NCBI RefSeq assembly: GCF_002631185.1
Contig: NZ_PDNU01000043.1
Coordinates: 1 to 33,114 of the forward strand
Source of the DNA: Teichococcus rhizosphaerae
GTDB taxonomy: Bacteria > Pseudomonadota > Alphaproteobacteria > Acetobacterales > Acetobacteraceae
Direction: 5' to 3'
DNA: 33,114 nucleotides
The stretch's first letter is position 1; every line of letters begins with the position of its first letter. The notes under the pieces were generated by a model that saw only the letters and a program-made list of their open reading frames with translations, made no database searches and was not told the DNA's origin. Positions 15,280-33,114 of this stretch are shown here, one piece after another. Position numbers and translations under genes: made by a program.

Positions 15280-15281
15280 GC

Positions 15282-17404: not shown

Positions 17405-18114
17405 GGCGGCGCTGGGCATGGCTGCTGGCGCAGGCCGCCGCCTTCCTGCTGGCGCTCTGGGCGGCGCCACGGGCGGAGGGGCTGTGGCGCTGGCTGTTCC
17501 CCGGCATCGCGCGCCCGGTCTGGGAAAGCCAGAGCTGGTTCGTGCTGCTGGGCGAGCACCTGATGCTGTCGCTCGGCGCCGCCGCCATCGCCGGCACGAT
17601 CGGCCTCGCCGCCGCCATCCTCGCCACCCGGCCCGGCGGGCAGCGGCTGCGGCCGCTGCTGGACGCGGTGTTCTCGCTCGCCCAGGCCATCCCGCCCGTG
17701 GCCGTCATCGCGCTGGCCCTGCCGCTGCTGGGCTTCGGCGCGGCGCCCACGCTGCTGGCGCTGGTGCTCTATGCCAGCCTGCCGGTGATGCGCGGCGCCG
17801 TGGCGGGGCTCGACGCCGTGCCGCCCGCCGTGCTGGACGCGGCGCGCGGCACCGGCATGGGGCGGGCGGGCATCCTGGCGCGGGTGGAGCTGCCGCTGGC
17901 CATGCCGGTGATCCAGGCGGGGCTGCGCGTCGCCGTGGTGCTGTCCATCGCCACCACCGCGGTGGGGGCGGTCGCCGGCGCGCAATGCCTCGGCACGCCG
18001 ATCGTCACGGGGCTGGCCAATGGCAACATGGCGTGGGTGGCGCAGGGCGCCGTGTTCACCGCCTGGCTGGCGCTGCTGGCGGACCGGGCGCTGCGGCTGG
18101 CGCTGGCCCGCTGA
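17401..18114 (+). CDS. Osmoprotectant ABC transporter, short permease (YehW-like)
   Basis: A 237-residue permease with about six membrane helices. The first (about 8-25) is followed by a short external loop with tryptophans (WRWLFPGIARPVWESQSWF), then the conserved permease core with helices near 52-75, 88-115, 125-140, 170-190 and 210-230. The coupling helix is VLDAARGTGMGRAGILARVELPL. Together with the long permease it should form the heterodimeric membrane channel. ATG 17401 overlaps the stop of the ATPase gene. A hairpin follows the stop and separates it from the convergent amino acid transporter operon. Confidence 0.92.
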   Translation: MRRRWAWLLAQAAAFLLALWAAPRAEGLWRWLFPGIARPVWESQSWFVLLGEHLMLSLGAAAIAGTIGLAAAILATRPGGQRLRPLLDAVFSLAQAIPPVAVIALALPLLGFGAAPTLLALVLYASLPVMRGAVAGLDAVPPAVLDAARGTGMGRAGILARVELPLAMPVIQAGLRVAVVLSIATTAVGAVAGAQCLGTPIVTGLANGNMAWVAQGAVFTAWLALLADRALRLALAR

Positions 18115-18117
18115 ACA

Positions 18118-18150
18118 GGGGGCGCGGGAGAAGCGAACGCCTCCCGCCCC
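18118..18150. terminator. Hairpin between two convergent ABC operons
   Basis: GGGGCGCGGGAG (18119-18130) pairs with CTCCCGCCCC (18141-18150); two bases bulge on the left side, and the loop is ten bases. It follows the permease stop by about five bases and precedes the end of livM on the other strand. No T tract is present. Confidence 0.45.
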
Positions 18151-18162
18151 GCCTTCCGCCGG

Positions 18163-19167
18163 TCAGAGGCGGACCTTGAGGATCCGGCCCAGCTCGCCCA
18201 CCACGCCAGCGCGGAAGGCCAGTACGCAGGCCACGAAGATGACGCCCTGGATCACTGTCACCCAGGCGCCGAACTCGGCCAGGTAGTTCTGCATGGTGAC
18301 GATCACCGCGGCACCCACCACGGGGCCGAACACCGTGCCGAGGCCGCCCACCAGCGTCATCAGCACCACCTCGCCGGACATCGCCCAATAGACGTCGGTC
18401 AGGGTCGCGATGCCGAAGAGCAGCGCCTTGGTGCCGCCGGCGATGCCGGCCAGCGTGGCGGAAAGGGTGAAGGCCACCAGCTTGTAGTCATCCGTCCGGT
18501 AGCCGAGCGAGGTGGCGCGCGGCTCGTTCTCGCGGATCGCCTTCAGCACCTGGCCGAAGGGCGAGTGGACGATGCGGTTGATGAACAGGAAGCCCGCCAG
18601 GAAGACGGCCGCCACCACCCAGTAGAGCGTCAGGTCGGAGCTGAGGTCGATGGCGCCGAACAGCGCGCCGCGCGGCACGCGCTGGATGCCGTCCTCGCCG
18701 CCCGTGAAGGGCGCCTGGAGGCAGAAGAAGTACACCATCTGCGCCAGCGCCAGGGTGATCATGGCGAAGTAGATGCCCTGGCGGCGGATGGCGACCCAGC
18801 CCGCCACCACGCCGAGCCCCGCTCCCACCACGCCGCCGGCGAGGATGGCAAGCTCCGGCGTGAGGCCCCACACCTTGGCCGCGTGCGCCGCCACATAGCC
18901 GCCCATGCCGAAGAACATGGCATGGCCGAAGGAGAGCAGGCCGACATAGCCGATCAGCAGGTTGAAGGCGCAGGCGAAGAGCGCGAAGCAGAGCAGCTTC
19001 ATCAGGAAGACGGGGTAGAGCAGGAACGGCCCCACCAGCAGCACGCCCAGCATCACCAGGAAGGCGATGCTCTGCGCGCGGTTGAAGCCGAGCCCCGAAA
19101 GGCCGAGCAGGCCGGGGGCTTCCGGCACCAGCAGGGCCGGCGCCGTGGATGCGTGACCACTGGCCAT
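18163..19167 (-). CDS. livM: Branched-chain amino acid-type ABC transporter, permease (LivM)
   Basis: A 334-residue inner-membrane permease of the LivM family, last gene of a five-gene importer operon. After a polar N-terminus (about 30 residues) it has some nine to ten hydrophobic helices. Family marks are the central stretch NLLIGYVGLLSFGHAMFFGMGGYVAA and the coupling region SPFGQVLKAIRENEPRATSLGY, which docks to the LivG/LivF ATPases. The end (GLGTVFGPVVGAAVIVTMQNYL) is also typical. ATG 19167 lies only four bases after the livH stop, so the two are surely co-transcribed. The symbol marks the family; the substrate may be another amino acid or an amide. Confidence 0.92.
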   Translation of the reverse strand: MASGHASTAPALLVPEAPGLLGLSGLGFNRAQSIAFLVMLGVLLVGPFLLYPVFLMKLLCFALFACAFNLLIGYVGLLSFGHAMFFGMGGYVAAHAAKVWGLTPELAILAGGVVGAGLGVVAGWVAIRRQGIYFAMITLALAQMVYFFCLQAPFTGGEDGIQRVPRGALFGAIDLSSDLTLYWVVAAVFLAGFLFINRIVHSPFGQVLKAIRENEPRATSLGYRTDDYKLVAFTLSATLAGIAGGTKALLFGIATLTDVYWAMSGEVVLMTLVGGLGTVFGPVVGAAVIVTMQNYLAEFGAWVTVIQGVIFVACVLAFRAGVVGELGRILKVRL

Positions 19168-19171
19168 GTTC

Positions 19172-20059
19172 TCAGGCCCTCCCGAACAGGCCGGCCGGCC
19201 GTGCCAGCAGCACGATGGCCATGATGACGAAGATGACGGTCGAGGAGGCCTCCGGGTAGAACACCTTGGTCAGCCCCTCGACGAGGCCGAGCCCGAAGCC
19301 GGTGAGCACCGAGCCCAGGATGGAGCCCATGCCGCCGATCACCACCACGGCGAAGACCACGATGATGAGGCTCGACCCCATCTGCGGGTTCACCGAATAG
19401 ATCGGCGCCGCCAGCACGCCCGCGAAGGCCGCCAGCGCGACGCCCGCCGCATAGGTGAGCGTGACCATGCGCGGCACGTTCACGCCGAAGGCCTGCACCA
19501 GCGCCGCATTCTCGGTCGCCGCGCGGAGATAGGCGCCGAGCCGCGTCTTCTCGATGACCAGCCAGGTGGCCAGGCTCATCGCCAGCGCCGCCACCACCAC
19601 CCAGAGGCGGTATTTCGGCAGGAACATGAAGCCGAGATCGACCGGCGGGCCGCCCAGCGCCGCGGGCGGGCTGTAGGGCAGGCCGGAGGAGCCGAACTCG
19701 TTGCGGAAGATGCCCTCGATGATCAGCGCCAGGCCGAAGGTCAGCAGCAGGCCGTAGAGATGGTCGAGCTTGTAGAGGCGGCTGATCATGGTCTTCTCGA
19801 TCAACACGCCGAAGGCGCCGACGATGAGCGGCGAGAGCACCAGTGCCGGCCAGTAGCCGATGCCCACCCAGTTCAGCAGCATCCAGGCGACGAAGGCGCC
19901 CATCATGAACTGTGCGCCATGGGCGAAGTTGATGACGTTCAGCATGCCGAAGATGACGGCCAGGCCCAGCGAGAGCAGCGCGTAGAAGGCGCCGTTCACC
20001 AGGCCGAGCACGATCTGCGGCAGGCCGAGCTCCAGTTGAAAAAGAATTTCCTCAAGCAC
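19172..20059 (-). CDS. livH: Branched-chain amino acid-type ABC transporter, permease (LivH)
   Basis: A 295-residue permease of the LivH family, partner of LivM. Typical segments are GLVNGAFYALLSLGLAVIFGMLNVINFAHG near the N-terminus, the coupling loop LGAYLRAATENAALVQAFGVN, and the end GGMGSILGSVLTGFGLGLVEG. About eight helices are seen. The start is GTG (20057-20059), with GGGAAG nine bases upstream and MLEEILFQLE as N-terminus. The gene is separated from the upstream binding-protein gene by 81 bases that hold a perfect 10-bp stem-loop, a common way to make more binding protein than permease. Confidence 0.92.
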   Translation of the reverse strand: MLEEILFQLELGLPQIVLGLVNGAFYALLSLGLAVIFGMLNVINFAHGAQFMMGAFVAWMLLNWVGIGYWPALVLSPLIVGAFGVLIEKTMISRLYKLDHLYGLLLTFGLALIIEGIFRNEFGSSGLPYSPPAALGGPPVDLGFMFLPKYRLWVVVAALAMSLATWLVIEKTRLGAYLRAATENAALVQAFGVNVPRMVTLTYAAGVALAAFAGVLAAPIYSVNPQMGSSLIIVVFAVVVIGGMGSILGSVLTGFGLGLVEGLTKVFYPEASSTVIFVIMAIVLLARPAGLFGRA

Positions 20060-20093
20060 CGGCGAGACTTCCCGTGGCGAAGGGCTTCAGGGC

Positions 20094-20117
20094 GACAGGC
20101 GGCGGGCGCCGCCTGTC
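20094..20117. terminator. Perfect 10-bp stem-loop between binding-protein and livH genes
   Basis: GACAGGCGGC (20094-20103), loop GGGC, GCCGCCTGTC (20108-20117). It begins 23 bases past the binding-protein stop on the minus strand. No T tract follows, so it is more likely an mRNA-stabilising or partially terminating element inside the operon than a full terminator. Confidence 0.6.
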
Positions 20118-20140
20118 ATAGCACAGGAGCAGCGCGCGGC

Positions 20141-21397
20141 TCAGCTCCGCACGAGGCTGCAGCCGCCCTCGGCGAGCGGGCGCCAGGCCTCGTCGGCCGA
20201 GCTGGTCTGCAGGACCTTGTAGTAGTCCCACGCGCCCTTGGACTCCTCGGGCTTCTTCACCTCGAACAGGTAGACCGGGTGCAGCTTGCGGCCATCCTCG
20301 CGGATGCGGCCGGCGCCGAAGCAGTCATCGTCCGTCGGCATCGCCTTCATGCGCGCCACCGCCTCGGCGCCGCTCGCCTTGGCGGCCGCCACGCCCATGT
20401 CGCCCACCGCCTTCAGGTAGTGCAGCACGGAGGCGTAGCAGCCGGCATGCGACATGGCGGGGTAGTTGCCGCCCATCGCCCCCTTCACCCGGTTGGTGAA
20501 GGCGCGGGTGCGGTCGTTGAGGTCCCAGTAGAAGCTCTCGGTGCAGACCAGGCCCTGCGCCGCGTTCAGCCCGAGGCTGTGCACGTCGTTGATGAACATC
20601 AGCAGCACGGCGATCTTGGTGCCGCGGCGCGTGACGCCGAACTCCGCCGCCTGCTTGACGCTGTTGATGGTGTCCGTGCCCGCGTTGGCGAGGCCGATCA
20701 CCTTGGCGCGGCTCTGCTGCGCCTGCAGCAGGTAGGAGGAGAAGTCGGTCGACTGCAGGGGATGGCGGACATTGCCCAGCACCTTGCCGCCGGCCGCCTG
20801 CACGAACTTCGAGGTATCGCGCTCCAGCGCGTGGCCGAAGGCGTAGTCGGCGGTGATGAAGAACCAGCTGTCGCCGCCCGTCTTCACCATCGCGCCGCCG
20901 GTGGATTTGGCGAGCATGTAGGTGTCGTAGGTCCAGTGCACCGTGTTGGGGCTGCACTGCGCGCCGGTGAGGTCGGTGGTGGCGCCGGTCGAGTTGAAGT
21001 AGGCCTTGTTCTTCTCGCGGACCACGGCGTTCACCGCCAGCGCCACCGCCGAGTTCGGCACGTCCACGATCACGTCCACGCCGTCGCGGTCGATCCACTG
21101 GCGCGCCACGGTGGAGCCGACATCGGCCTTGTTCTGGTGGTCGGCGAAGACGACCTCGACATTCACGCCGCGCTGGGTGATGCCGGAATCCTGGATCGCC
21201 TGCCGCACGCAGGCGACGGAGCCGGGGCCGGAGATCTCGCGATAGACCCCGGACTGGTCGTTGAGCACGCCGATCCTGAGCGTGTTGGCGGCCTGGGCGC
21301 GGGCGCGGCCGGGCAGGCCCGCGAGCCCCGCCCCGAGGGCGGGAGCGATGGCCGCGGCGGCGGCGGTCTTCAGCAGGCTGCGGCGATCTTGTGCCAT
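20141..21397 (-). CDS. ABC transporter substrate-binding protein (branched-chain amino acid type)
   Basis: A 418-residue periplasmic binding protein of the LivJ-like family. The N-terminus MAQDRRSLLKTAAAAAIAP has the twin-arginine pattern R-R-S-L-L-K before a hydrophobic stretch, which suggests Tat export, with cleavage after ARAQA (about residue 35). The mature chain begins with NTLRIGVLNDQSGVYREISGPG, the usual first strand and ligand loop, and continues with FADHQNKADVGSTVARQWI and NSTGATTDLTGAQCSPNTVHW. Cysteines are few. ATG 21397 was chosen; ATG 21415 (MGENRE) would spoil the signal peptide. It lies in the middle of the operon, after the two ATPase genes and before the permeases, flanked by structured spacers. 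Substrate: branched-chain amino acid, amide or related compound; not resolved. Confidence 0.9.
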   Translation of the reverse strand: MAQDRRSLLKTAAAAAIAPALGAGLAGLPGRARAQAANTLRIGVLNDQSGVYREISGPGSVACVRQAIQDSGITQRGVNVEVVFADHQNKADVGSTVARQWIDRDGVDVIVDVPNSAVALAVNAVVREKNKAYFNSTGATTDLTGAQCSPNTVHWTYDTYMLAKSTGGAMVKTGGDSWFFITADYAFGHALERDTSKFVQAAGGKVLGNVRHPLQSTDFSSYLLQAQQSRAKVIGLANAGTDTINSVKQAAEFGVTRRGTKIAVLLMFINDVHSLGLNAAQGLVCTESFYWDLNDRTRAFTNRVKGAMGGNYPAMSHAGCYASVLHYLKAVGDMGVAAAKASGAEAVARMKAMPTDDDCFGAGRIREDGRKLHPVYLFEVKKPEESKGAWDYYKVLQTSSADEAWRPLAEGGCSLVRS

Positions 21398-21446
21398 CTC
21401 TCGGTTCTCTCCCATCGCCCCTGTTGTCCCCGGGGCCGGGTCTGGT

Positions 21447-21485
21447 GCCTCCACCGGCGCAGTGCGCCGCGGGACGGGCGGAGGC
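21447..21485. promoter_or_regulatory. Nested stem-loops between livF and the binding-protein gene
   Basis: An outer stem GCCTCC (21447-21452)/GGAGGC (21480-21485) encloses an inner perfect hairpin CGGCGC-AGT-GCGCCG (21455-21469). It lies in the 121-base spacer between the livF stop and the binding-protein start. It may protect or process the mRNA, or hide an internal promoter; no promoter was recognised. Confidence 0.4.
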
Positions 21486-21518
21486 GTGCAGGCTGTCAGC
21501 GCGCCGCTTCCGCGGCCG

Positions 21519-22215
<697 letters not shown>

Positions 22216-22223
<8 letters not shown>

Positions 22224-23022
22224 GCGCCTGGGCTCCCTTCGCCTGCGCCGTCTCGGCCGGCGCGCCGGTCATGGACGGGTCGGTGCCGAGATAGGCGGCT
22301 ACGACCTCCGGGTTGCGGGAAACCGTGGCGTAGTCGCCTTCCGCCAGCACGCGGCCACGCGTCAGCACCGTGATGGTGTCGCACAGGCCTTCCACCACCT
22401 TCAGGTTGTGCTCGACCATCAGCACGGTGCGGCCCTGCGCCACGCGCCTCACCAGCGCCACGATGCGGTCCACGTCCTCGGCGGTCATGCCGGCGGTGGG
22501 CTCGTCGAGCAGCATCATCACCGGGTCGAGCGCCAGGGTGGTGGCGATCTCCAGCGCGCGCTTGCGGCCATAGGGAAGCTGGCCCGCGGTCAGCCCGGCA
22601 TAGCTGGCGAGGCCCACATCGTCGAGCAGCTCGCGCGCCCGCTGATCGTATTGCCGCAGCAGCCGGTCGGAGCGCCAGAAGTCGAAGCTGCCGCCACGCG
22701 CGCGCTGCAGGGCCACGCGCACGTTCTCCAGCACCGTCAGGTGCGGAAAGACGGCCGAGATCTGGAAGCTGCGCACCAGCCCGAGCCGCGCCACCTCGGC
22801 CGGCTTCATGCGCGTGATGTCGCGGCCGTCGAAGCGGATCTCGCCCCGCGTCGGCGGCAGGAACTTGGTCAGCAGGTTGAAGCAGGTCGTCTTGCCGGCG
22901 CCGTTGGGCCCGATCAGCCCATGGATGCTGCCTCGCCGGATCTGGAGCGACACATCGCCCACGGCCACGAAGCCAAGGAACTCCTTGGTCATGCCGCGCG
23001 TCTCCAGGATGGTATCCGTCAC
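22216..23022 (-). CDS. livG: Branched-chain amino acid-type ABC transporter, ATP-binding protein (LivG)
   Basis: A 268-residue ATPase, first gene of the importer operon. Walker A is GPNGAGKTT (38-46), the Q-loop VRSFQISAVFPHLTVLENV, the signature region LPYGRKRALEIA (149-160; the LivG family often has YGxxR in place of LSGGQ), Walker B MMLLDEP (169-175) and the switch histidine in VEHNLKVV. The start is GTG 23022, preceded by GAGGGAG at good distance; the open frame continues upstream to 23112, but that part is not like the family, and the strong ribosome-binding site decides. An ATG at 22992 would remove the first strand. Upstream lies a 180-base spacer with a GGTCCCG/CGGGACC dyad. Confidence 0.93.
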
Positions 23023-23056
23023 CCCGCGCTCCCTCTCTCTTGTACGGTCCCCACAA

Positions 23057-23073
23057 GGTCCCGTTCCGGGACC
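23057..23073. promoter_or_regulatory. Dyad in the livG leader
   Basis: GGTCCCG (23057-23063), TTC, CGGGACC (23067-23073): perfect seven-base arms. A further GGTCCC half-site lies at 23046-23051 and another dyad CATTG-N7-CAATG at 23073-23089. These lie 35-67 bases before the livG start, where an operator or leader hairpin for the operon is expected. No good -35/-10 pair was found beside them. Confidence 0.45.
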
Positions 23074-23124
23074 ATTGCGACGCACAATGACGAGGCGGAA
23101 AGAGCGGCGCAAGCAAAGCTTTCG

Positions 23125-23140
23125 GGCGCTCCGCAGCGCC
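23125..23140 (-). terminator. Possible rrf2 terminator
   Basis: GGCGCT (23125-23130), CCGC, AGCGCC (23135-23140) make a 6-bp stem. On the minus strand it is followed by CGAAAGCTTTGCTTG, a mildly T-rich tail, about 63 bases past the rrf2 stop. Confidence 0.35.
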
Positions 23141-23202
23141 GCCTCGCCCAGCCGCGCCCAGCCACGCCAGCGCTGGCCGGAGGGACGGAGCGGGCCGCCG
23201 CC

Positions 23203-23652
23203 TCAGATGGCGAAGTTCAGCGCCTCCGGCGTCGGGCGCTGCAGGCCGGCCAAGGCGGCGCGGCGCAGCAACTCGGCCACGCTGCGCCCCCCGAGCGCCT
23301 CCAGCAGCCCCGCCTCCAGCTCCTCCCACAGCGGCAGCACCACCTGCACCTGCAAGGGAGAGGGTGGCGGCGGCTCGGCGGCGGCATCGCTTCCCGTCAC
23401 GGCCGCGACCACCTCGGCCAGGGTGATGTCCCGCGCCGCGCGGCCCAGCCGGTAGCCGCCCTTGGGCCCGCGGGTGCTGCCGAGGATGCCGGCGCGGGAG
23501 AGGGATTGCAGCACGGGCTCGATGCCGCGCCGCGCCTCGCCCAGCCGGTCGGCGATGTCGCCCGCCGGCACGGTGCTGCCACGGCCGGCGTGGAAAGCCA
23601 CGTCCAGCACAATCGACACCGCCGTCATCGCCCGATCCCGCCGCAGCAACAT
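23203..23652 (-). CDS. Rrf2 family regulator without cysteines
   Basis: A 149-residue winged-helix regulator of the Rrf2 family. The N-terminus RRDRAMTAVSIVLDVAFHAG, the helix-turn-helix VPAGDIADRLGEARRGIEPVLQSLSRAG and the wing LGSTRGPKGGYRLGRAARDITLAEVV follow the family plan. It has no cysteine at all, so it cannot bind an iron-sulfur cluster through the three cysteines used by IscR; in this it resembles CymR, the cysteine-metabolism repressor of Bacillus subtilis. It is divergent from a cysteine synthase gene with only 47 bases between the chosen starts. ATG 23652 has AGGGGTGA at proper distance; a GTG at 23661 (adding MNA) is possible. Regulation of sulfur metabolism is an inference from context. 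Confidence 0.9.
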   Translation of the reverse strand: MLLRRDRAMTAVSIVLDVAFHAGRGSTVPAGDIADRLGEARRGIEPVLQSLSRAGILGSTRGPKGGYRLGRAARDITLAEVVAAVTGSDAAAEPPPPSPLQVQVVLPLWEELEAGLLEALGGRSVAELLRRAALAGLQRPTPEALNFAI

Positions 23653-23667
23653 TGCATTCACCCCTGA

Positions 23668-23688
23668 ACCACGCGTTCGAGACGTGGT
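23668..23688. promoter_or_regulatory. Dyad between rrf2 and cysK
   Basis: ACCACG (23668-23673), nine bases, CGTGGT (23683-23688): perfect six-base arms over 21 bp. A second overlapping dyad, GAAC-N5-GTTC, occupies 23666-23678. Both fall between the two divergent starts and overlap the candidate cysK -10, as expected for a repressor site. Confidence 0.5.
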
Positions 23689-23693
23689 ATAGC
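23685..23693 (+). promoter_or_regulatory. Candidate extended -10 of cysK
   Basis: TGGTATAGC (23685-23693) reads as an extended -10 (TG, one base, TATAGC). The expected transcription start is about 23700, which coincides with the first ATG of cysK. No convincing -35 is present at 17 bases. Confidence 0.4.
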
Positions 23694-23699
23694 CCTCTC

Positions 23700-24683
23700 A
23701 TGCCCGAAGGAAACACCCCTCGCGCCGCTGCTGGCGCCACCCGGCCCCATGGGATGCATGAGAGCATCCTCAGCACCATCGGCAACACGCCCCTCGTCCG
23801 CCTGCCGCGGCTGGAGGCGGCGCGTGGCCTGCGGGCGCGGCTGGCGCTGAAGCTGGAGTTCTTCAACCCGCTCGGCTCGGTGAAGGACCGGATCGGACTG
23901 GCCATGATCGAGGCGGCGGAGCGCGAGGGGCGCATCCGTCCCGGCGAATCGGTGCTGGTGGAGCCGACCTCCGGCAATACCGGCATCGCGCTCGGCTTCG
24001 CCGCCGCCGCCAAGGGCTACCGGCTGATCGTCACCATGCCCGATGGCGCAAGCCTCGAACGCCGCAAGATGCTGCGGCTGCTCGGCGCGGAGGTGGAGCT
24101 GACGCCCGCCAGCCAGGGAATGTCCGGCGCCATCGCGCGGGCGGAGGAGATCCTGGCGGCCACGCCCGGCGCCTGGATGCCCCGGCAGTTCGACAACCCG
24201 GCCAATCCGGAGATCCACGCCGCCACCACGGCGGAGGAGATCTGGGCCGACAGCGAGGGGCGGGTGGATCTGGTGGTGGGCGGCATCGGCACGGGCGGCA
24301 CGCTCACCGGCATCGCCCGCGCCCTCAAGCCGCGCCGGCCGGAGATGCGGGTGATCGGGGTGGAGCCGGCGGAATCCGCGGTGCTCTCGGGCGACGACCC
24401 CGGCCCGCACGAGATCCAGGGGATCGGCGCGGGCTTCCGCCCCGCGGTGCTGGAGCTGCACCGGCTGGACGCGGTGCGGCGGGTCACGGAGCGGGAAAGC
24501 TTCGCCGCCGCCCGGCTCTGCGCCCGCACGGAGGGGCTGCCCATCGGCATCTCGTCCGGCGCGGTGCTGCACGCCATGCTGGAGCTGGGTGCCGAGCCGG
24601 CGCTGGAGGGGCGGCTGATCGTGGGCATCGCCGCCTCCTTCGCCGAGCGCTACCTTTCCACGGACCTTTTCGCCGGGCTCTGA
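23700..24683 (+). CDS. cysK: Cysteine synthase (O-acetylserine sulfhydrylase)
   Basis: This pyridoxal phosphate enzyme makes L-cysteine from O-acetylserine and sulfide. The 327-residue reading has the cofactor lysine K62 in FFNPLGSVKDRIG, the substrate loop EPTSGNTGIALGF, the phosphate-binding loop GIGTGGTLTGIARAL and the late serine motif PIGISSGAVLHAML. Type A and type B cannot be separated with certainty; the K-L-E-F-F-N-P-L-G-S-V-K-D-R motif is common to CysK-like enzymes. Two starts compete: ATG 23700, which would be leaderless if the -10 at 23688 is right, and ATG 23754 (MHESILSTIGNTPLV), which gives the usual 309 residues. Neither has a ribosome-binding site. It is divergent from an Rrf2 regulator gene. 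Confidence 0.93.
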   Translation: MPEGNTPRAAAGATRPHGMHESILSTIGNTPLVRLPRLEAARGLRARLALKLEFFNPLGSVKDRIGLAMIEAAEREGRIRPGESVLVEPTSGNTGIALGFAAAAKGYRLIVTMPDGASLERRKMLRLLGAEVELTPASQGMSGAIARAEEILAATPGAWMPRQFDNPANPEIHAATTAEEIWADSEGRVDLVVGGIGTGGTLTGIARALKPRRPEMRVIGVEPAESAVLSGDDPGPHEIQGIGAGFRPAVLELHRLDAVRRVTERESFAAARLCARTEGLPIGISSGAVLHAMLELGAEPALEGRLIVGIAASFAERYLSTDLFAGL

Positions 24684-24720
24684 CGGAGGGCTTCGCCGCA
24701 GGGCCCGCCCGGGGCCGCGC

Positions 24721-25008
24721 TCAAAGGCGGCGGAGATAGCTGTGCACCGCCTCCCACGCATCCCGCGCCGGATGGTGGTGGCCGAACTCATTGGCCAGGT
24801 CGTAGCCATAGTTCCGGAAGTCCATCTTCAGGACGTCGATCCAGCGGCGGCGCTGAAGCGCCCCCTGCCCCGCCAGCGCCTGCTGGATGGCGCGCTCCGC
24901 GGCGCCCCGCCCCAGGTCGCGCGCCCTTGCGGGGGCTGTGTCCTCGAAGATCTGCGTGTGGATCTCGTGACCGATCTGCTCGAACACCATGCCACCACGC
25001 ATCGTCAT
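24721..25008 (-). CDS. Small protein of unknown function
   Basis: A 95-residue protein that I do not recognise. It is soluble, without cysteine, signal peptide or membrane helix. The N-terminus is MTMRGGMVFEQIGHEIHTQI; the middle is a basic/alanine-rich helix (ARARDLGRGAAERAIQQALAG); the C-terminus has aromatic and histidine-rich segments (FRNYGYDLANEFGHHHPARDAWEAVHSYLRRL). Clustered histidines could bind metal, which is speculation. ATG 25008 has GGGGA six bases upstream. A good promoter (TTGCTG-N17-TAAGAT) and a strong dyad lie directly upstream, which argues that it is a real, regulated gene and not a chance frame. It ends 37 bases from the convergent cysK stop. Confidence 0.65.
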   Translation of the reverse strand: MTMRGGMVFEQIGHEIHTQIFEDTAPARARDLGRGAAERAIQQALAGQGALQRRRWIDVLKMDFRNYGYDLANEFGHHHPARDAWEAVHSYLRRL

Positions 25009-25022
25009 GCCCGTCCCCGCAT

Positions 25023-25044
25023 ATCATTGTGCAATGCAAATGAT
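25023..25044. promoter_or_regulatory. Dyad upstream of the small unknown gene
   Basis: ATCATT (25023-25028) and AATGAT (25039-25044) enclose TGCA-A-TGCA, so the whole is an almost perfect 22-bp dyad with one unpaired G. It begins 15 bases upstream of the ATG at 25008 and covers the expected transcription start. The size and A/T-rich ends resemble sites of Fur-superfamily repressors; which protein binds is unknown. Confidence 0.5.
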
Positions 25045-25071
25045 CTTATGCGACGGGGCAAAATGCAGCAA
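25043..25071 (-). promoter_or_regulatory. Candidate promoter of the small unknown gene
   Basis: On the minus strand TTGCTG (25066-25071) and TAAGAT (25043-25048) are spaced by 17 bases. The -10 has four of six consensus bases including first T, second A, fifth A and last T. It lies in an A/T-rich patch that stands out in this GC-rich region. Confidence 0.5.
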
Positions 25072-25182
25072 CTATGAGGCTTGCACCCCCGGAGCCCCTG
25101 CCGCCGCAAAGTTGCGTGAGACAAGGAGGGGGAAAGGGGATGCGCCCCGGCGCCAGGGCCGTCCCGGGCCTTGCCACCGCGC

Positions 25183-25223
25183 AAGAAGAAGGCCCGGCCC
25201 CCGTTTCCGGCGACCGGGCCTTC
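25183..25223 (-). terminator. Intrinsic terminator of tRNA-Pro
   Basis: GAAGGCCCGG (25188-25197) and CCGGGCCTTC (25214-25223) form a perfect 10-bp stem with a 16-base loop. On the minus strand it is followed by TTCTT, so it is a true Rho-independent terminator, 57 bases after the tRNA 3' end. Confidence 0.75.
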
Positions 25224-25280
25224 GAAGGGCCGGACATGCCCGCAGGGAGCATGAAGGCCGGCAATCCTGGGCATCGCGTA

Positions 25281-25354
25281 TCGGGCAGGCGGGATTCGAA
25301 CCCACGACCCCCAGTCCCCCAGACTGATGCGCTACCAGGCTGCGCTACTGCCCG
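25281..25354 (-). tRNA. tRNA-Pro (anticodon GGG)
   Basis: On the minus strand a 74-base cloverleaf is found: acceptor stem CGGGCAG/CTGCCCG, D stem GCGC/GCGC, anticodon stem TCAGT/ACTGG with loop CTGGGGG (anticodon GGG), and T arm GTGGG-TTCGAAT-CCCGC. The discriminator base is A; CCA is not encoded. It reads proline codon CCC. It lies downstream of ihfA and a MerR gene on the same strand, a neighbourhood common in alphaproteobacteria, and has its own terminator. Confidence 0.97.
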
Positions 25355-25423
25355 CTGTGCCAGGATGCCGGTCCGCCTTCCGCACCAGCCATCCGGCTGG
25401 AGCGTATCGGCTCCGACGCCGGG

Positions 25424-25452
25424 GGCATAGCACCCGCGCCCCGGCGCCTCAA
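25424..25452 (-). promoter_or_regulatory. Candidate promoter of tRNA-Pro
   Basis: On the minus strand TTGAGG (25447-25452) and TATGCC (25424-25429) are 17 bases apart, giving a start about 60 bases before the tRNA. The match is moderate (the -10 fits only at TAT). Confidence 0.3.
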
Positions 25453-25513
25453 CCCCCCGTTCCGCAGAAGATGGCGTTAATCTGCCGCCAAACCTGCCCA
25501 GGCGCCGCCCTCC

Positions 25514-25954
25514 TCACCGCCCCATGCGGGCAGCCAGGACGCGAAGCTCCTCCGCCAGCGCCTCGAGCTCCGACATGGCCTCGCGCAGCGCCGTGGCGGC
25601 CGGCTCCTGGTGCGCGGCCTCGCTTTCCGGCAGCTCGCCTTCCGCCTCGCCGCCGCCTTCCCCGCCACTGTCGCGCAGCAGGCGCTGCACGCCCTTGATG
25701 GTGTAGCCCTGGGTGTAGAGCAGGTCGCCGATGCGGCGCAGCAGCGCGATGTCCTCGGGCCGGTAGTAGCGCCGGCCGCCGCCGCGCTTCAGCGGCTTGA
25801 GCTGCGGGAACTTGGTTTCCCAGAAGCGCAGCACGTGTTGCGGGATCTGCAGGTCCTCCGCCACCTCGCTGATGGTGCGGAACGCCGTCGGGGCCTTGCG
25901 CGGTCGGCCGGTGGCCTCCGGATCCTCTGGCATCGGATGCACCCCGTCATTCAT
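25514..25954 (-). CDS. MerR family transcriptional regulator
   Basis: A 146-residue regulator. The MerR helix-turn-helix and wing lie at about residues 25-95: [39 protein letters not shown] followed by [30 protein letters not shown] Gly/Glu-rich linker then leads to a C-terminal helix ([23 protein letters not shown]) suited to dimerisation. No cysteine is present in the C-terminal part, so it is not a metal sensor of the classical MerR type. It is found between ihfA and tRNA-Pro, an arrangement conserved in many alphaproteobacteria, and the 36-base gap to ihfA implies co-transcription. A second ATG at 25933 has a somewhat better ribosome-binding site. Targets are unknown. Confidence 0.92.
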
Positions 25955-25990
25955 GTGGTCAGTTCCACGCTGCAGCCGGGTGGGCCGGCA

Positions 25991-26299
25991 TCACTCGTCA
26001 CCCGCGCGCACCGCCTCGCCGTTGAGCCGGGCCTTGAGGACCTGGCTGGGACGGAAGGACAGGACGCGCCGGGGCATGATGGGCACCTCCACCCCGGTCT
26101 TCGGGTTGCGGCCGACCCGCATGCCCTTCTGCCGCACGGAGAAGGTGCCGAAGGCGGAGATCTTCACGGGCCGGCCCAACTCCAGCGCGGCGGAGATGCG
26201 CTCCAGCACATCCTCCAGCAGCGCGGCACTTTCGTTCCGCGACAGGCCGACCTGGGCATAGATCGCCTCGGCCAGTTGCGCACGGGTGATGGTGTTCAT
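25991..26299 (-). CDS. ihfA: Integration host factor, alpha subunit
   Basis: IhfA pairs with IhfB to bend DNA sharply at specific sites, aiding recombination, replication and transcription. The 102-residue chain has the HU/IHF fold: [31 protein letters not shown] helices, then [23 protein letters not shown] with P65 at the tip of the DNA-intercalating arm, and a C-terminal helix [16 protein letters not shown] 26299 gives the standard N-terminus [14 protein letters not shown]; the frame continues open upstream to 26449 without family similarity. It starts the ihfA-merR-tRNA-Pro cluster. Phage-type integrases often require IHF, but the integrase at the right edge is 6 kb away and unrelated in transcription. 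Confidence 0.96.
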
Positions 26300-26470
26300 G
26301 TCCGAGCGCGGCCCATGGCTGTCTGACTCCTCACAACCCCTTCTGGTTAAAAGAGAACCGGGATGGGTCGCTGGCGTCAACCATGCGGCGGGGTGTGGCA
26401 AGGAAGCTTCAATCAGGCGCGACATTTTTGCCACACCCTCTCCCCTCATCCCATGGATCGAGGCATGGCC

Positions 26471-27034
26471 TCAGGCGCCATCCGCGCGGGCCGTGGCCAG
26501 GAGAAGGGTCTGGATCGGGTCCCAGAGCATGGCCGACTGGGGCACCGCCACCCCCCCGACTCGGGCATGGTCGGTGGCCACGAGGCGCCCGCCCAGATGC
26601 TGGTAGAACCAGCGCGACGGATTCTCGCTCAGCACCCACAGCATGGCCGAGCGGCAGCCGGTGGCCGCCAGATGCGCCGCGATGGCGCGCATCAGCCGCC
26701 GGCCGATGCCGCGCTCGCGCCAGTCCTCCAGCAGGTAGAGCGTCTCGATCTCGCCCTGGGCGAGGAGGGTGCGGCGCGCGCGGGCGCCGGAGGCGAAGCC
26801 CACCACCTGGGCGGGGCCGCCACCCGGCTCCGCCTCGGCGGTGGCCACGAACATGGCGGAGCCTTCCCGCCGCTCCAGCAGGCCGCGCTGGTAGCCCGCG
26901 GCGATGCGCGGCAGGGACAGGCCGGCCAGGTAGGCATCGGGCAGGATACCCGCATAGGTGCTCCGCCAGGTCTCGATATGGACGGCGGCGATGGCGGCGG
27001 CGTCGGCCGGGCGGGCCTTGCGGATACGGATCAT
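26471..27034 (-). CDS. GNAT family N-acetyltransferase
   Basis: A 187-residue acetyltransferase of the GCN5-related fold. It starts MIRIRKARPADAAAIAAVHIETWRSTYAG, the usual first strand and helix; the acetyl-CoA loop is in motif A, IETLYLLEDWRERGIGRRLMRAI (Q/R-x-x-G-x-G/A pattern as R-E-R-G-I-G), and the C-terminal strand holds WVLSENPSRWFYQHLGG, with a tyrosine that may be the general acid. Its start ATG 27034 has GAGGTG upstream. It lies 38 bases after the rsmB-like gene, probably in the same transcript. The substrate cannot be guessed. Confidence 0.9.
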   Translation of the reverse strand: MIRIRKARPADAAAIAAVHIETWRSTYAGILPDAYLAGLSLPRIAAGYQRGLLERREGSAMFVATAEAEPGGGPAQVVGFASGARARRTLLAQGEIETLYLLEDWRERGIGRRLMRAIAAHLAATGCRSAMLWVLSENPSRWFYQHLGGRLVATDHARVGGVAVPQSAMLWDPIQTLLLATARADGA

Positions 27035-27072
27035 CGGCCTGGCACCTCTTCCCGTTTCGCCGCCCGGCCGGG

Positions 27073-28392
27073 CTATTCCTTGCGGCGAAGCACGGCGGCG
27101 AAGAAGCCATCCGTGCCATGGCTGTGCGGCGCCAGTTCCATCCAGCGGCCATCGCAGGGCGGCGGCCCGGGCGGATTGGCGGGCGCGAAGGCCTCCCCCC
27201 ACGCCTCGGCGACCGGGACAGCCTCGTATTCGCCATGCCGTGCCAGGAAGGCCTCGACCTGCGACCCGTTCTCCTCGGGCAGCACCGAACAGGTAGCGTA
27301 GACCAGCCTTCCGCCGGGGCGCACCAGTTCCGCCACGGTTTCGAGGATTTCTCTCTGTTTGGTGACCAGCTCCTCCAGGTCGCGTGCCTGGGTTCGGCTG
27401 CGCGCGTCCGGGTTGCGGCGCCAGGTGCCGGTGCCGGTGCAGGGCGCGTCCACCAGCACGCGGTCGAACTGGCCGGCGCGCCGCTTCACCCAGCGGTCGC
27501 CGGGCTGGAGGAAGTGGCGCTCGGCATTGTCCACGCCGGCGCGGCGCAGGCGCTTCACCGCGCCCTCCAGCCTCGTCGCCGACACGTCGCAGGCGATGAT
27601 GCGGCCACGGTTGCCCATGGTGGCCGCCACCGCCAGGGTCTTGCCCGCGGCGCCGGCGCAATAATCCACCACCCGCATGCCCGGCCGCGCGCCGGTCAGC
27701 AGGGCGATGAGCTGGCTGCCCTCGTCCTGGATCTCGACCAGCCCGTCCGTATAGGCCTTGCTGGCGAGGATGGGCCGGCGGTCGGCGATGCGCAGGCCCC
27801 AGGGCGAGAAGGGCATGGGCTCGGTGGCGATGCCCTCGGCGGCCAGCGCCGCGGCGGCGGCCTCGCGCGTGGTGCGCAGCAGGTTGGCGCGGAGGTCGAG
27901 CGGCGCGGGCTGCTCCATCGCCGCCATCGCCTCCTCCAGCGCCGCGCCGAAGCGCGCCTTGAAGCCGGGCAGCGCCCAGTCCGGCAGGTTGTGGCGCGGC
28001 CCCTCGGGCATCTCCTCATCGACCAGCGGCGCGCCGGCCAGCGCCTCGATGACGCTCAGCTCGCCCGGATCGGGAGGCGCGGGGTTGAAGCGGCCGCCGC
28101 AGAAGGCCTGCAGCACCCCCTCGCGCGTCCAGCGCTCCACCAGCAGCAGGTGCGCCATCACCAGCAGCCGCGGCGTGGCGGGCACGCCGCCGGCCGCCAG
28201 GTGCCATTCCAGCCGGATGCGCTGGCGCAGCACGCCCCAGGCGCGCTCGGCCACGGCGCGGCGGTCGCCGCTGCCGATGTAGCGGCGCTCGCGGAAGAAG
28301 CTGTTGGCGGTGGCGTCGGCCGGGCGGCGTGGCGCGGCGGCCACCTCGGCCAGCAGCGCCACCGTGGCGGCGATCCGCGCGGAAGGTGTCAT
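27073..28392 (-). CDS. RsmB/NOP family RNA (cytosine-5) methyltransferase
   Basis: A 439-residue SAM-dependent enzyme that methylates cytosine C5 in RNA, most likely 16S rRNA as RsmB does (C967 in Escherichia coli). The N-terminal part (1-150) is helical and NusB-like. The Rossmann domain has motif I VVDYCAGAAGKTLAVAATM, motif IV with the catalytic DAPCTGTGTW, and motif VI with the nucleophile in YATCSVLPEENG. Both conserved cysteines (PC in motif IV, TCS in motif VI) are intact. It is 88 bases downstream of guaB, but a terminator-like hairpin lies between. ATG 28392 has only a weak ribosome-binding site. The family is certain; exact target base is inferred. Confidence 0.92.
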   Translation of the reverse strand: MTPSARIAATVALLAEVAAAPRRPADATANSFFRERRYIGSGDRRAVAERAWGVLRQRIRLEWHLAAGGVPATPRLLVMAHLLLVERWTREGVLQAFCGGRFNPAPPDPGELSVIEALAGAPLVDEEMPEGPRHNLPDWALPGFKARFGAALEEAMAAMEQPAPLDLRANLLRTTREAAAAALAAEGIATEPMPFSPWGLRIADRRPILASKAYTDGLVEIQDEGSQLIALLTGARPGMRVVDYCAGAAGKTLAVAATMGNRGRIIACDVSATRLEGAVKRLRRAGVDNAERHFLQPGDRWVKRRAGQFDRVLVDAPCTGTGTWRRNPDARSRTQARDLEELVTKQREILETVAELVRPGGRLVYATCSVLPEENGSQVEAFLARHGEYEAVPVAEAWGEAFAPANPPGPPPCDGRWMELAPHSHGTDGFFAAVLRRKE

Positions 28393-28436
28393 GTCGAACC
28401 GTGCTCACACCGGGCATCGCGCCCGGGACCTTGGGG

Positions 28437-28474
28437 GAAAGAAACGGGGGTCCGGGGGAGCGTCCCTCCCCCGG
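28437..28474 (-). terminator. Terminator of guaB
   Basis: CCGGGGGAG (28452-28460) and CTCCCCCGG (28466-28474) form a perfect 9-bp stem with a 5-base loop, starting a few bases past the guaB stop. On the minus strand the stem is followed by ACCCCCGTTTCTTT, a moderately T-rich tail. Confidence 0.65.
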
Positions 28475-28480
28475 CCCTGC

Positions 28481-30148
<1,668 letters not shown>

Positions 30149-30841
30149 CTACCGCCCTGCATCCGCGGACGCGCCGCGGAACCCCTGGGCCACCACATAC
30201 ATCTCCGCGCTGTCCTTGCGGCTGGAGGGCGGCTTGGCGTGCCGGACCGTCGCGAAGTCCCGCTTCAGCCGGTTCAGCAGGTCGCGCTCCGTGCCGCCCT
30301 GGAACACCTTGGCCACGAAGGCGCCCCCCGGCACCAGCACCTTGCCCGCGAAATCCAGCGCCAGCTCGATCAGGCCGAGGATGCGCAGATGGTCCGTCGC
30401 GTTGTGGCCCGTGGTGTTGGGCGCCATGTCGGACAGGACGAGGTCGGCCGGGCCGTCGAGCGCATCCAGCACCGCCTGCTCCACCGCCGCGTCCTGGAAG
30501 TCGCCCTGCAGCAGGGTGGCGCCGGCGATGACGTCCATCGGCAGCAGGTCGAGCGCCACCACCTTGCCGCGCTCGCCCACGCGCTGCACCGCCACCTGCG
30601 TCCAGCCACCCGGCGCGGCGCCAAGGTCGACCACGCGCTGACCGGGGCGGAAGAGGTGGTACTTCTCGTCCAGCTCCAGGATCTTGAAGGCGGCGCGGGA
30701 ACGCCAGCCGGCCGCCTTGGCGGCGCGGACATAGGGGTCGTTGAGCTGCCGCTCGAGCCATCTCTGGCTGGCGGTGGTGCGGCCCTTTGCGGTGCGGAGG
30801 CGCGTGGTCAGGCCACGCCCGGCTCCGGTCGGAGTCTTCAC
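30149..30841 (-). CDS. rlmE: 23S rRNA (uridine-2'-O-)-methyltransferase RlmE
   Basis: RlmE (FtsJ/RrmJ) adds a 2'-O-methyl group to U2552 of 23S rRNA, a late step in large-subunit assembly. The 230-residue protein has the SAM loop DLGAAPGGW (72-80) and the catalytic tetrad K53, D138, K178, E213 (in AAFKILEL, SDMAPNTTG, VAKVFQGG and SAEMYVVA). The start is GTG 30841 with a GAGG site that overlaps the stop of the preceding gppA-like gene only 12 bases upstream, so the two are co-transcribed. The N-terminal 25 residues are basic and fit RNA binding. Length is slightly above the Escherichia coli enzyme (209) because of this extension. Confidence 0.95.
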   Translation of the reverse strand: MKTPTGAGRGLTTRLRTAKGRTTASQRWLERQLNDPYVRAAKAAGWRSRAAFKILELDEKYHLFRPGQRVVDLGAAPGGWTQVAVQRVGERGKVVALDLLPMDVIAGATLLQGDFQDAAVEQAVLDALDGPADLVLSDMAPNTTGHNATDHLRILGLIELALDFAGKVLVPGGAFVAKVFQGGTERDLLNRLKRDFATVRHAKPPSSRKDSAEMYVVAQGFRGASADAGR

Positions 30842-30853
30842 GGCGGGAAATCC

Positions 30854-31924
30854 TCAGGGCGCGGGGTGCGCGGCCCAGCGTTGCGGGTGGGCGGCACGGC
30901 GCGGTGGGGCACGGTCCTGGCGCATCATGCGCAGCAGCATGCCCTCCCGCAGGCCACGATCGGCGACGGTGACGCAGGAGGACGGCCAGACCCGGCGGAT
31001 GGCGGCATATATCGCGCATCCGGGGAGAACGAAATCCGCCCGCTCCGGCCCGACGCAGGGATGGGCGCGCAGCCCTTCCCGCCCGAGCTGGAACAGGTCT
31101 CGCAGCGCCTGGTCCGCCGCCTCGATGTCCAGCACCCGCCCGTCGATCAGGGGCCGGGAATAGCGCGGCAGGGAGAGCGCCACGCCGGCCAGGGTGGTCA
31201 CCGTGCCGCTGGTGCCCATCAGCCGCACGCCGCCCGCCCGCATCTCGCGGCCGATGCTGTGCACCCGGTCGAACTCGGACAGATGGGCGGCGACCTCGTC
31301 CACCACCCGGCCGAAGCCTTCCGGCGTGTAGCAGCAGAGCCCCGCCCGCTCGGCCAGGGTGACGACGCCGAGGGGAAGCGAGACATAGCCGATCAGCTCC
31401 GCCTGCCCGGCCGGGCCGGAGCGGATCCAGGCGATCTCGGTGCTGCCGCCGCCGATGTCGAACAGCAGGGCGCGGCGGTCCTGGGCGCGCATCAGGGGGG
31501 CGCAGGATTCCATCGCCAGCTCCGCCTCCTCCCGCGCCGAGATGATGCGGATGGGCAGGCCCGTCGCGGCCTGGGCGCGGGCGACGAAGGCGCGGCCGTT
31601 ATCCGCCTGCCGGCAGGCCTCGGTGGTGACGGCGAGCAGCCGGCGCAGCGGCCGGCGCAGCAGCTTCTGGGCGCAGGTCTGCAGGGCCGCGAGCGCCCGC
31701 TCCATGGCGCCCTCGGACAGGCGGCCGTCATTCGCCAGCCCCTCGCCCAGCCGGACGACGCGGCTGTAGCTGTCCAGCACCCGGAAGGCGCCGGCCTGGG
31801 TGGGCGTGCCGACGAGCAGGCGGCAGTTGTTGGTGCCGAGATCGATCGCCGCGAATGCACCGCCAGAGGCTGCGGGTTGCGGTTGGAGGCGGGCGGCGGC
31901 AGGATTCGACACGGGTTCTGGCAT
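30854..31924 (-). CDS. Ppx/GppA family exopolyphosphatase
   Basis: A 356-residue member of the Ppx/GppA family, which removes phosphate from polyphosphate or from pppGpp; sequence cannot separate these roles. The ASKHA fold is shown by the phosphate-1 loop AIDLGTNNCRLLVG (26-39), the segment VTTEACRQADNG with E102, the loop IISAREEAELA with catalytic glutamates near 132, and phosphate-2 DIGGGSTEIAW (156-166). It is the short form, lacking the C-terminal HD domain of the 500-residue Escherichia coli proteins. The N-terminal 22 residues are a Pro/Ala-rich extension. ATG 31924 is preferred over an ATG 40 codons upstream (32044), which would begin at the tRNA-Gln promoter. It heads the gppA-rlmE unit. 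Confidence 0.92.
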   Translation of the reverse strand: MPEPVSNPAAARLQPQPAASGGAFAAIDLGTNNCRLLVGTPTQAGAFRVLDSYSRVVRLGEGLANDGRLSEGAMERALAALQTCAQKLLRRPLRRLLAVTTEACRQADNGRAFVARAQAATGLPIRIISAREEAELAMESCAPLMRAQDRRALLFDIGGGSTEIAWIRSGPAGQAELIGYVSLPLGVVTLAERAGLCCYTPEGFGRVVDEVAAHLSEFDRVHSIGREMRAGGVRLMGTSGTVTTLAGVALSLPRYSRPLIDGRVLDIEAADQALRDLFQLGREGLRAHPCVGPERADFVLPGCAIYAAIRRVWPSSCVTVADRGLREGMLLRMMRQDRAPPRRAAHPQRWAAHPAP

Positions 31925-32049
31925 GATGAAGGGCGCCTTTCCCGGCTCCGTCCGGGCAGGGGCGGATGGGGGGCCTGCCAATGATCCGGCCTGCGGGCGC
32001 CCGGGGCAAGCGATTTCGCACCGCAACGCGGCATGCTTCAACACCCCCC

Positions 32050-32078
32050 TTGCAAGGCTTCCGGCCGGGCGCTATATC
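32050..32078 (+). promoter_or_regulatory. Promoter of tRNA-Gln
   Basis: TTGCAA (32050-32055) and TATATC (32073-32078) are separated by exactly 17 bases; each matches four or more consensus bases. The start would be near 32085, a few bases before the mature tRNA at 32093. It is the clearest housekeeping promoter in the window. Confidence 0.7.
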
Positions 32079-32092
32079 GCCGCCAACGCCGT

Positions 32093-32166
32093 TGGGGAAT
32101 AGTTTAACGGTAGAACTCCCGACTCTGACTCGGGCAGTCTTGGTTCGAATCCAGGTTCCCCAGCCA
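32093..32166 (+). tRNA. tRNA-Gln (anticodon CUG)
   Basis: A 74-base cloverleaf: acceptor stem TGGGGAA/TTCCCCA, D stem GTTT/GAAC, anticodon stem CCCGA/TCGGG with loop CTCTGAC (anticodon CUG), T arm CTTGG-TTCGAAT-CCAGG, discriminator G, and an encoded CCA (32164-32166). It reads glutamine codon CAG. It is directly followed by an integrase gene, so its 3' end is probably the attachment site of a mobile element. Confidence 0.97.
32140..32166 (+). other. Probable attachment site (attL) at the tRNA-Gln 3' end
   Basis: Integrases of this type commonly recombine in the T-arm/acceptor end of a tRNA gene and restore it on integration. The intact tRNA 3' end lies 97 bases before the integrase start and marks a visible drop in GC. 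The second copy (attR) would be to the right of the window, so the exact core cannot be defined here. Confidence 0.45.
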
Positions 32167-32207
32167 CTTCGAAAAATCCAACAATTTCATAGGTCTGCCG
32201 GTCCTGC

Positions 32208-32235
32208 GGACAAATTGTCCCCCAGGATTGTCCCC
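32208..32235. repeat. ATTGTCCCC repeats between tRNA-Gln and the integrase gene
   Basis: ATTGTCCCC occurs at 32214-32222 and 32227-32235, period 13. The first copy is also the right half of a palindrome GGACAA-A-TTGTCC (32208-32220). An inverted copy lies inside the integrase gene at 32548-32556 and a variant ACTGTCCCC at 32575-32583. The position next to the tRNA end fits recombinase arm sites or a repressor/excisionase operator. Confidence 0.6.
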
Positions 32236-32262
32236 GAAACCTTCCATGTGAAGGGGGCCTTG

Positions 32263-33114
32263 GTGGCAGATGGATTGCGCCTTCGCGGCAGAGTTTTCTG
32301 GCTTAGAAGAAGGGTGCCCAGAGCCCTTCTGGAAGCCATCCCCATCCATGAATACGACATCTCGCTGAAGACCAAAGAGCGCCGGGAAGCCCTCATCAGG
32401 GGGCGAGCCACGTCGCATCTGGTTGACCAAATCTTTGCCAGGGTGGCATCGGGAGAGCTTGCCGGCGAGCATGCTCCGGGGGTCCTTCGGGCGGTCGCCA
32501 AGGCGAGTCCCTGGCTCGCTAATGGCTCTGGCTTCCCTCTTCCTTTGGGGGACAATCCTCCGCAGCCGGCCGAGACTGTCCCCTCGCCTCCCCCTAAAGC
32601 TGCCTCCCAGATAAAGGTCAGGAAGACCTCTCCAGGCGGGCCGCTGCTGAGCGACCTGGTTGCTCGGTTCCTGGAGGAACGCGGCTCCGGGGAGTCTGCC
32701 ATCTCGGGCCAGCATCTCCACCAGTCTGCCGCCACCTACCGGCTGACCGTCGAACTGTTGGGCGACGTGCCTCCGGCTGACCTGACTAGGCGGCATGCCG
32801 CAGAGCTCAGAGGCCTTCTTCTTCGGCTCCCGGCCAGTCATGGGAAAGCCCGCAACGGCAAGACAGCTCTCGTGGCCATCCAGGAAGCCGACGCCTCTGA
32901 GGCCGGCGGCCAAACGGTGGAGCGCCTCAAGGAGAAGACTGCCAAACGCCATTTTTCAGCGCTCCAGCAGCTCTGGAAGTGGCTTGCTGACCGGGAAATG
33001 GTCAGCCTCAACCCTTTCGAGAACTGGCAGTTCAAGGGCGGTCGAGCAGCTCAGGCTCGAGACGACTGGTCCGAAATGGACCTCCTGAAGCTCCTGGAGA
33101 CCCCGTGGCTAGGT
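32263..33114 (+). CDS. Tyrosine recombinase/phage integrase, 5' part (cut by window edge)
   Basis: A 284-residue N-terminal portion of a site-specific integrase; the frame has no stop up to the window end. The start is chosen at GTG 32263, which has AGGGGG five bases upstream; the same frame stays open back through the tRNA. Residues 1-60 (GLRLRGRVFWLRRRVPRALL, YDISLKTKERREALIRGRA) look like the small arm-binding domain of DUF6538-type integrases. After a Pro-rich linker, residues about 130-265 form the helical core-binding domain (AKRHFSALQQLWKWLADREM, VSLNPFENW). The end (RDDWSEMDLLKLLETPWLG) begins the catalytic domain; the R-H-R-Y residues lie beyond the edge. GC is lower than its neighbours (60% in 33001-33060 by hand count), as expected for an acquired element inserted at tRNA-Gln. 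Confidence 0.88.
   Translation, partial: MADGLRLRGRVFWLRRRVPRALLEAIPIHEYDISLKTKERREALIRGRATSHLVDQIFARVASGELAGEHAPGVLRAVAKASPWLANGSGFPLPLGDNPPQPAETVPSPPPKAASQIKVRKTSPGGPLLSDLVARFLEERGSGESAISGQHLHQSAATYRLTVELLGDVPPADLTRRHAAELRGLLLRLPASHGKARNGKTALVAIQEADASEAGGQTVERLKEKTAKRHFSALQQLWKWLADREMVSLNPFENWQFKGGRAAQARDDWSEMDLLKLLETPWLG

Follow-up and report, generated by a model that had tools for sequence, protein, structure and literature searches.

The stretch analysed here, referred to as the window, is a 33,114 nucleotide contig of Teichococcus rhizosphaerae (NZ_PDNU01000043.1; C52 in our numbering) that stops within a gene for a tyrosine recombinase (integrase). The gene is located directly 3′ of a tRNA-Gln(CTG) gene and oriented away from it, which raises the question whether the contig ends inside an integrated element, and of what kind. 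A first-pass annotation of the sequence had described an intact tRNA-Gln followed by such an integrase; ARAGORN recovers the intact tRNA, and the two likely start codons of the integrase, TTG and GTG, lie 49 and 82 nucleotides behind it. The lower GC content reported for the gene was also borne out: it falls from 0.73 to 0.62-0.63, with 0.631 in the integrase gene compared with 0.732 in the flank. We consider it quite probable that an integrative and likely mobilizable element has its left end (attL) here and works by the mechanism proposed below. It is an ordinary tRNA-integrated element, a further example of an established kind that is new in detail, and to call it undescribed, as the annotation did, seems fair.

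The first-pass annotation had interpreted the window as the left edge of an integrated element, which calls for a second copy of the tRNA 3′ end and for relatives that lack the insertion. Both were found. When the genome of the strain (4.65 Mb) was searched with positions 31966-33114, one further place was identified, on the plus strand of another contig, C92 (3191-3243): all 53 bases correspond to the 3′ part of the tRNA and the orientation fits an attR. Since this copy is located on a different contig, the distance between the two repeats cannot be measured; with this limit, neither of the outcomes that the annotation had named as refuting applies. With up to two mismatches allowed, the pattern of the tRNA end has two matches in this genome and a single match per genome in 17 others; each of the 16 genus mates has a single copy. 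To the right of attR, C92 carries an aldehyde dehydrogenase gene. In one genus mate (G016) the left flank of the window (91% identity) and the right flank of C92 (88% identity) meet at a single tRNA, and we take this as the empty site. The empty site rests on this one genome, as the tRNA and the aldehyde dehydrogenase gene are adjacent in only one of the 16 genus mates and not adjacent in the other 15. The statement that the remainder of the window is core genome agrees with the comparison for positions 12167-32166 (20 of the 33 kb), which are collinear with G016 in three blocks of 84-89% identity. In seven genus mates (G004, G005, G006, G008, G009, G014 and G015) a distance of 3-44 kb (0.2 kb in G016) separates the tRNA-Gln and aldehyde dehydrogenase genes, which share a contig and a strand; this interval could be an insertion hotspot or reflect a different gene order.

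A second line of evidence connects the two contig ends. The leader of the integrase gene contains a tandem repeat with the core TGTCCCC, and on C92 the same heptamer is found just inside attR at positions 3075 and 3088, 13 nucleotides apart, followed by GGGGACA at 3098. The motif scans covered 1,400,978 bases of the genome, of which 1,366,000, less than a third of the genome, were readable; 17 contigs shorter than 3 kb entered these scans as N only. In the readable bases the same-strand pair TGTCCCC-N6-TGTCCCC occurs at two places, one per element end. The pair therefore ties the ends on C52 and C92 to one element, independently of the 53 nucleotide repeat. The readable part of the element comprises at least 948 bases on C52 and 3,190 bases on C92 (about 4.1 kb), separated by a stretch of undefined size. 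No join to any other readable piece of the genome, including several phage-like contigs, was found with the end k-mers of C52 and C92. As fragments alone are visible, they might also be remnants of an integrase and a relaxase in a decayed, immobile island, and the integrase of a relative in Rhodopila is indeed apparently split between two frames. We regard such decay as unlikely, because the 53 nucleotide repeats are identical, both ends retain an intact arm pair, the visible integrase frame contains no stops and a full-length homologue exists in another genome (G239).

The visible part of the integrase comprises 288 residues from the GTG codon, with an open frame up to the contig end; the frame of the G239 homologue opens at the matching TTG. 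An arm-type N-terminus resembling DUF6538 had been predicted, and Pfam assigns DUF6538 and no other family to the N-terminal stretch (E 7e-11, above the cut-off). The predicted N-terminal arm-binding fold and the predicted core-binding fold both matched those expected for arm-binding tyrosine recombinases. The closest structural match of the DUF6538 fold is the HPI integrase (HPI/P4-like set 3jtz, 3rmp; 54 aligned residues, 18% identity); a Foldseek search of DUF6538 alone against the PDB returned nothing with an E value below 2.5. The Pro-rich linker noted in front of the core-binding domain is likewise present, with 13 prolines among the 67 residues 68-134. Other profiles gave a weak match to the integrase SAM-like domain (E 0.12) and a match to PHROG 1 "integrase" (E 5.5e-7). 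The catalytic region is located beyond the cut end of the gene, and the residues R-K-H-R-H-Y were read in the 81-82% identical G239 homologue instead. This protein has 513 residues, matches Phage_integrase (E 9e-12) and carries R321, K359, H430, R433, H456 and Y468, the catalytic residues of this family. The C-terminal half of the window's integrase was not found with five homologues in the readable pieces, nor when the whole genome was searched with the G239 protein.

Tandem repeats behind tRNAs were also found at related integrase loci. Among 30 such loci, 16 contain a repeat that is significant against shuffled sequences (p < 0.05), with a spacing of 11-13 nucleotides in 15 of the 16 and a sequence that differs between elements; the remaining 14 have no significant tandem repeat, several tRNA-Leu loci showing an inverted TTCCCA/TGGGAA instead. 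From this set 15 duplicate views and tRNA-Cys rows had been removed beforehand, and for 10 more locus ids an integrase match was obtained without a tRNA in reach. Near-copies are still present (L041/L212/L213; L208, the G239 locus, with the window; L202/L225; L182/L184/L215), so that the Fisher value is an overstatement. The repeat at L224, which sits at the edge of the tRNA and has a spacing of 9, is unlikely to be an arm site. Within the up to 20 kb examined per locus, a repeat of the tRNA end of at least 14 bases was found at just 5 of 20 related loci. In a both-ends test with single 8-mers, the five elements with a candidate attR had a 7/8 or 8/8 match to their left motif before the right repeat; L215, which has no tandem repeat, was left out. 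The result is clear for L209, L220 and L222, where 38, 66 and 70 of 2000 random windows reach the match. It is weak for L217 (303 of 2000) and for the motif of the window (7/8, reached by 170 of 2000, with an equal match at the right end of L222). A held-out set of 20 DUF6538 loci, outside the host family but within its class, was selected from 65 listed places on the basis of score and open-frame length (at least 379 amino acids). A tRNA is located at most 200 bases upstream in 17 of them, and seven have a significant tandem repeat (spacing 10-13 bases; two of the seven without an upstream tRNA), while 13 are not significant.

Mantel tests showed that similarity of the repeat region follows DUF6538 identity when catalytic-domain identity is held constant; the reverse was not observed. 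These tests used 20 of 21 proteins, one that was more than 85% identical having been dropped, with the G239 homologue in place of the window's cut gene; p = 0.0003 is the floor of the 3000 permutations, and the motifs were chosen automatically. Together with the predicted fold and the tRNA-linked, element-specific repeats, this makes an arm-binding role of DUF6538 probable. To have a likely function for this so far uncharacterised domain is a more useful outcome than the element itself, and no mention of "DUF6538" or "PF20172" was found in the literature searched. If DUF6538 reads the tandem repeats, element ends in draft genomes could be paired across contigs by their arm code, as here, and cross-talk at one tRNA would be directly testable. 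We further propose, with somewhat more doubt than confidence, that DUF6538 acts with its tandem arm repeats as a modular code for recognition, in which elements competing for one tRNA keep separate codes. The repeats at tRNA-Gln(CTG) are TTGTCCCC, GGTCCAC, AGTCCACA, GTGTCCACA, GCTCCCACA and GATACAGAG; the tRNA-Gln(TTG) locus of the strain itself has GTGTAGCA. With separate codes, one integrase would not excise a neighbouring element, and the codes of many elements would be readable from the approximately 60 bases between tRNA and integrase gene.

The kind of element was judged from the right end, where C92 encodes a MobV-like relaxase and two further proteins, OrfA and OrfC. The relaxase scores are below the respective cut-offs (NCBIfam MobV: E 6e-12, 46 bits, cut-off 100; Mob_Pre: E 3e-5, 24.2 bits, cut-off 25.5), and tblastn gives a match (E 7e-35) to pRm1132f, a plasmid typed as MOBV. 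The HxDE..PHxH motif is visible in the protein. Relaxase matches were found in 8 of the 299 genomes of the family (these and the class counts below include the strain itself). Upstream of the relaxase gene, a low-GC stretch with an 11 nucleotide perfect inverted repeat and 18 nucleotide direct repeats is a candidate region for the origin of transfer (oriT). OrfC has distant hypothetical relatives on plasmids of Rhizobium (1), Vibrio (1) and Pimelobacter (2); assignments as FlgJ (E 0.002), CheR (E 0.15, one of three members) or the TIP20 PDB chain (E 0.21) are far under the cut-off and were rejected. By eye, OrfC has an RNase H-like look. No plasmid record matched OrfA, and none of the three right-end proteins matched a defence family at E 0.1.

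Given a gene for a MobV-like relaxase and genes for two proteins without recognised family at the right end, an integrative mobilizable element (IME) is likelier than a prophage. The alternative, a prophage or satellite phage at tRNA-Gln that carries the relaxase-like gene as a passenger and its phage genes in the middle, would account for the PHROG 1 match and for the distant integrases with a DUF6538-like N-terminus that profile scans found on IMG/VR contigs, and the assembly does include phage-like contigs (C97, C99, C106 and C109, GC 0.63-0.65) with terminase, portal, tail sheath and baseplate genes recognised by eye from the open reading frames. We nevertheless judge it improbable: for the right-end proteins no phage family reaches E < 0.04, a MobV-like relaxase is in keeping with a plasmid or an IME, and the k-mer comparison mentioned above joined neither end to the phage-like contigs. 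Moreover, the G239 homologue had no close relative in a single-protein scan of IMG/VR, and it matched only four phage records, all below 30% identity. No virion structural or packaging genes were found in the approximately 4.1 kb of readable element. The resemblance of the relaxase to those of 2-7 kb plasmids, and the inverted and direct repeats upstream of it, would also suit a small MobV plasmid whose own integrase inserted it at the tRNA and which still replicates when excised. This overlaps with an IME, replication being the sole difference, and has a low probability in our view, as no replication protein was recognised in the 3.2 kb right end and no DNA match was found in the plasmid collection.

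For an IME at this site we propose the following mechanism. The tyrosine recombinase would recombine a site on the element with the tRNA-Gln(CTG) gene in its 3′ part and thereby duplicate 53 bases; an intact tRNA would result on the left and a 53 nucleotide attR on the right. DUF6538 would read the tandem TGTCCCC sites, which are 13 nucleotides apart and located 50-63 nucleotides inside attL and 103-116 nucleotides inside attR, and would be followed in the protein by a core-binding domain and by a catalytic domain that acts on the tRNA sequence. On this reading, integration resembles that of the lambda or P4 type, the arm-binding role being taken by DUF6538. As the left arm sites sit on the leader of the integrase gene, the bound integrase probably represses its own gene. 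The relaxase would nick oriT, and the excised circle could exit through the conjugation pore of a helper.

Known systems share parts of this arrangement. The canonical IMEs with tyrosine integrase and MobV relaxase reviewed in PMC5704250 have a terminal integrase and a tRNA 3′ end as target, as here, and their own MobV-type relaxase, to which the MobV-like protein on C92 may correspond; the comparison covers the two ends of the present element. According to the same article, no canonical IME (own relaxase, no type IV secretion system, T4SS) had been described from Proteobacteria up to 2017, and in the literature searched "Acetobacteraceae" was not found together with "integrative mobilizable element". 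The recombinases with arm-binding domains classified in PMC8138268 show a similar succession of an N-terminal strands-plus-helix domain, a core-binding and a catalytic domain (the last seen here in the homologue). That paper names DUF3596 and DUF4102 as arm domains, whereas the N-terminal domain here is DUF6538, a word absent from its main text. In structure, the N-terminal domain taken by itself is closest to the HPI and P4-like island integrases, yet the identity is low and Pfam assigns DUF6538. KplE1 IntS, as described in PMC2951348, likewise has a tRNA-inserted integrase gene with a promoter region overlapping attL; autoregulation was shown for IntS, whereas here the overlap of arm sites and leader is read from the DNA, and by analogy autorepression is likely.

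Integrase matches (E ≤ 1e-8) were found in 36 of the 299 genomes of the family and PF20172 in 42 of the 289 genomes of the class; relatives also occur in Rhodopila globiformis and on Acetobacter plasmids. By far the nearest is that in G239, which belongs to another genus and has an 82% identical integrase at the same tRNA. Its element leaves the contig 329 bases behind the integrase, so the middle is not shown there, and a query with C92 DNA did not recover its right end. By eye, this contig breaks at an apparent insertion-sequence end just behind the integrase (L208, 6530-6686). A compact sister element in G112 (L209), one of the eight genomes with a relaxase match, consists of a tRNA-Leu, a DUF6538 integrase, a Mob_Pre relaxase, a resolvase and a 15 nucleotide tRNA repeat 6.5 kb on; judged on integrase, relaxase, resolvase and att repeats, it may fit the description of canonical IMEs. 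The genome of the strain contains another DUF6538 integrase at the end of contig C76 (L279, 1320-1945), behind tRNA-Gln(TTG) and cut by the contig end 0.55 kb behind the tRNA. Its repeats are three copies of TGTAGCA spaced 13 and 12 nucleotides, TGTCCCC is absent from the plus strand of the 1.9 kb locus, and the right end of this element was not found in the readable pieces. One genome therefore holds two DUF6538 integrases with different repeats.

Features at the two ends of the element (window coordinates unless C92 is given)
Feature	Position	Strand	Evidence or remark
Ppx/GppA family gene	30854..32044	-	left flanking core gene
tRNA-Gln(CTG), intact	32093..32166	+	ARAGORN; 3′ part supplied by the element (attL)
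attL repeat, 53 bases	32114..32166	+	sequence search of own genome; equal to C92:3191-3243 (attR)
Left arm-type repeat 1, ATTGTCCCC	32214..32222	+	
Left arm-type repeat 2, ATTGTCCCC	32227..32235	+	13 bases behind repeat 1
Tyrosine recombinase (integrase)	32248..33114	+	cut by contig end; start GTG 32248 or upstream TTG 32215
DUF6538 (PF20172), predicted arm-binding domain	32275..32442	+	Pfam
Pro-rich linker	32449..32649	+	middle of low model confidence
Inverted arm heptamer within integrase gene	32548..32554	-	may be chance
Further arm heptamer within integrase gene	32577..32583	+	may be chance
Core-binding domain	32641..33039	+	fold like lambda Int 74-172
orfA, open 5′ end	C92:3-719		no family better than E 0.1
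MobV-like relaxase	C92:1299-2291		NCBIfam MobV, Mob_Pre, tblastn
orfC	C92:2316-2960		no credible family

Several further loci are of note. L041, L212 and L213 (in G010, G141 and G197, from two genera) have near-same DUF6538 integrases and an identical arm region at tRNA-Gln(CTG), with the G010 copy split between two frames; this similarity suggests recent transfer. The integrase of L211 appears family-like by eye, but Pfam gives no DUF6538 and it was not counted. At this locus (6525-17477 in G141) the tyrosine recombinase is accompanied by a tRNA-Ser(GCT), a MobV-like gene and, by eye, an apparent type I restriction system; L210 in G012 is a near copy of the array, in which the tRNA was not found. 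In the assembly of the strain itself, contig C112 carries genes that look pseudomonad by eye (PyrE, an exonuclease), possibly an assembly contamination, and contig C91, also read by eye, is plasmid-like and has several transposases along with a ParA-like and a replication-initiator-like gene.
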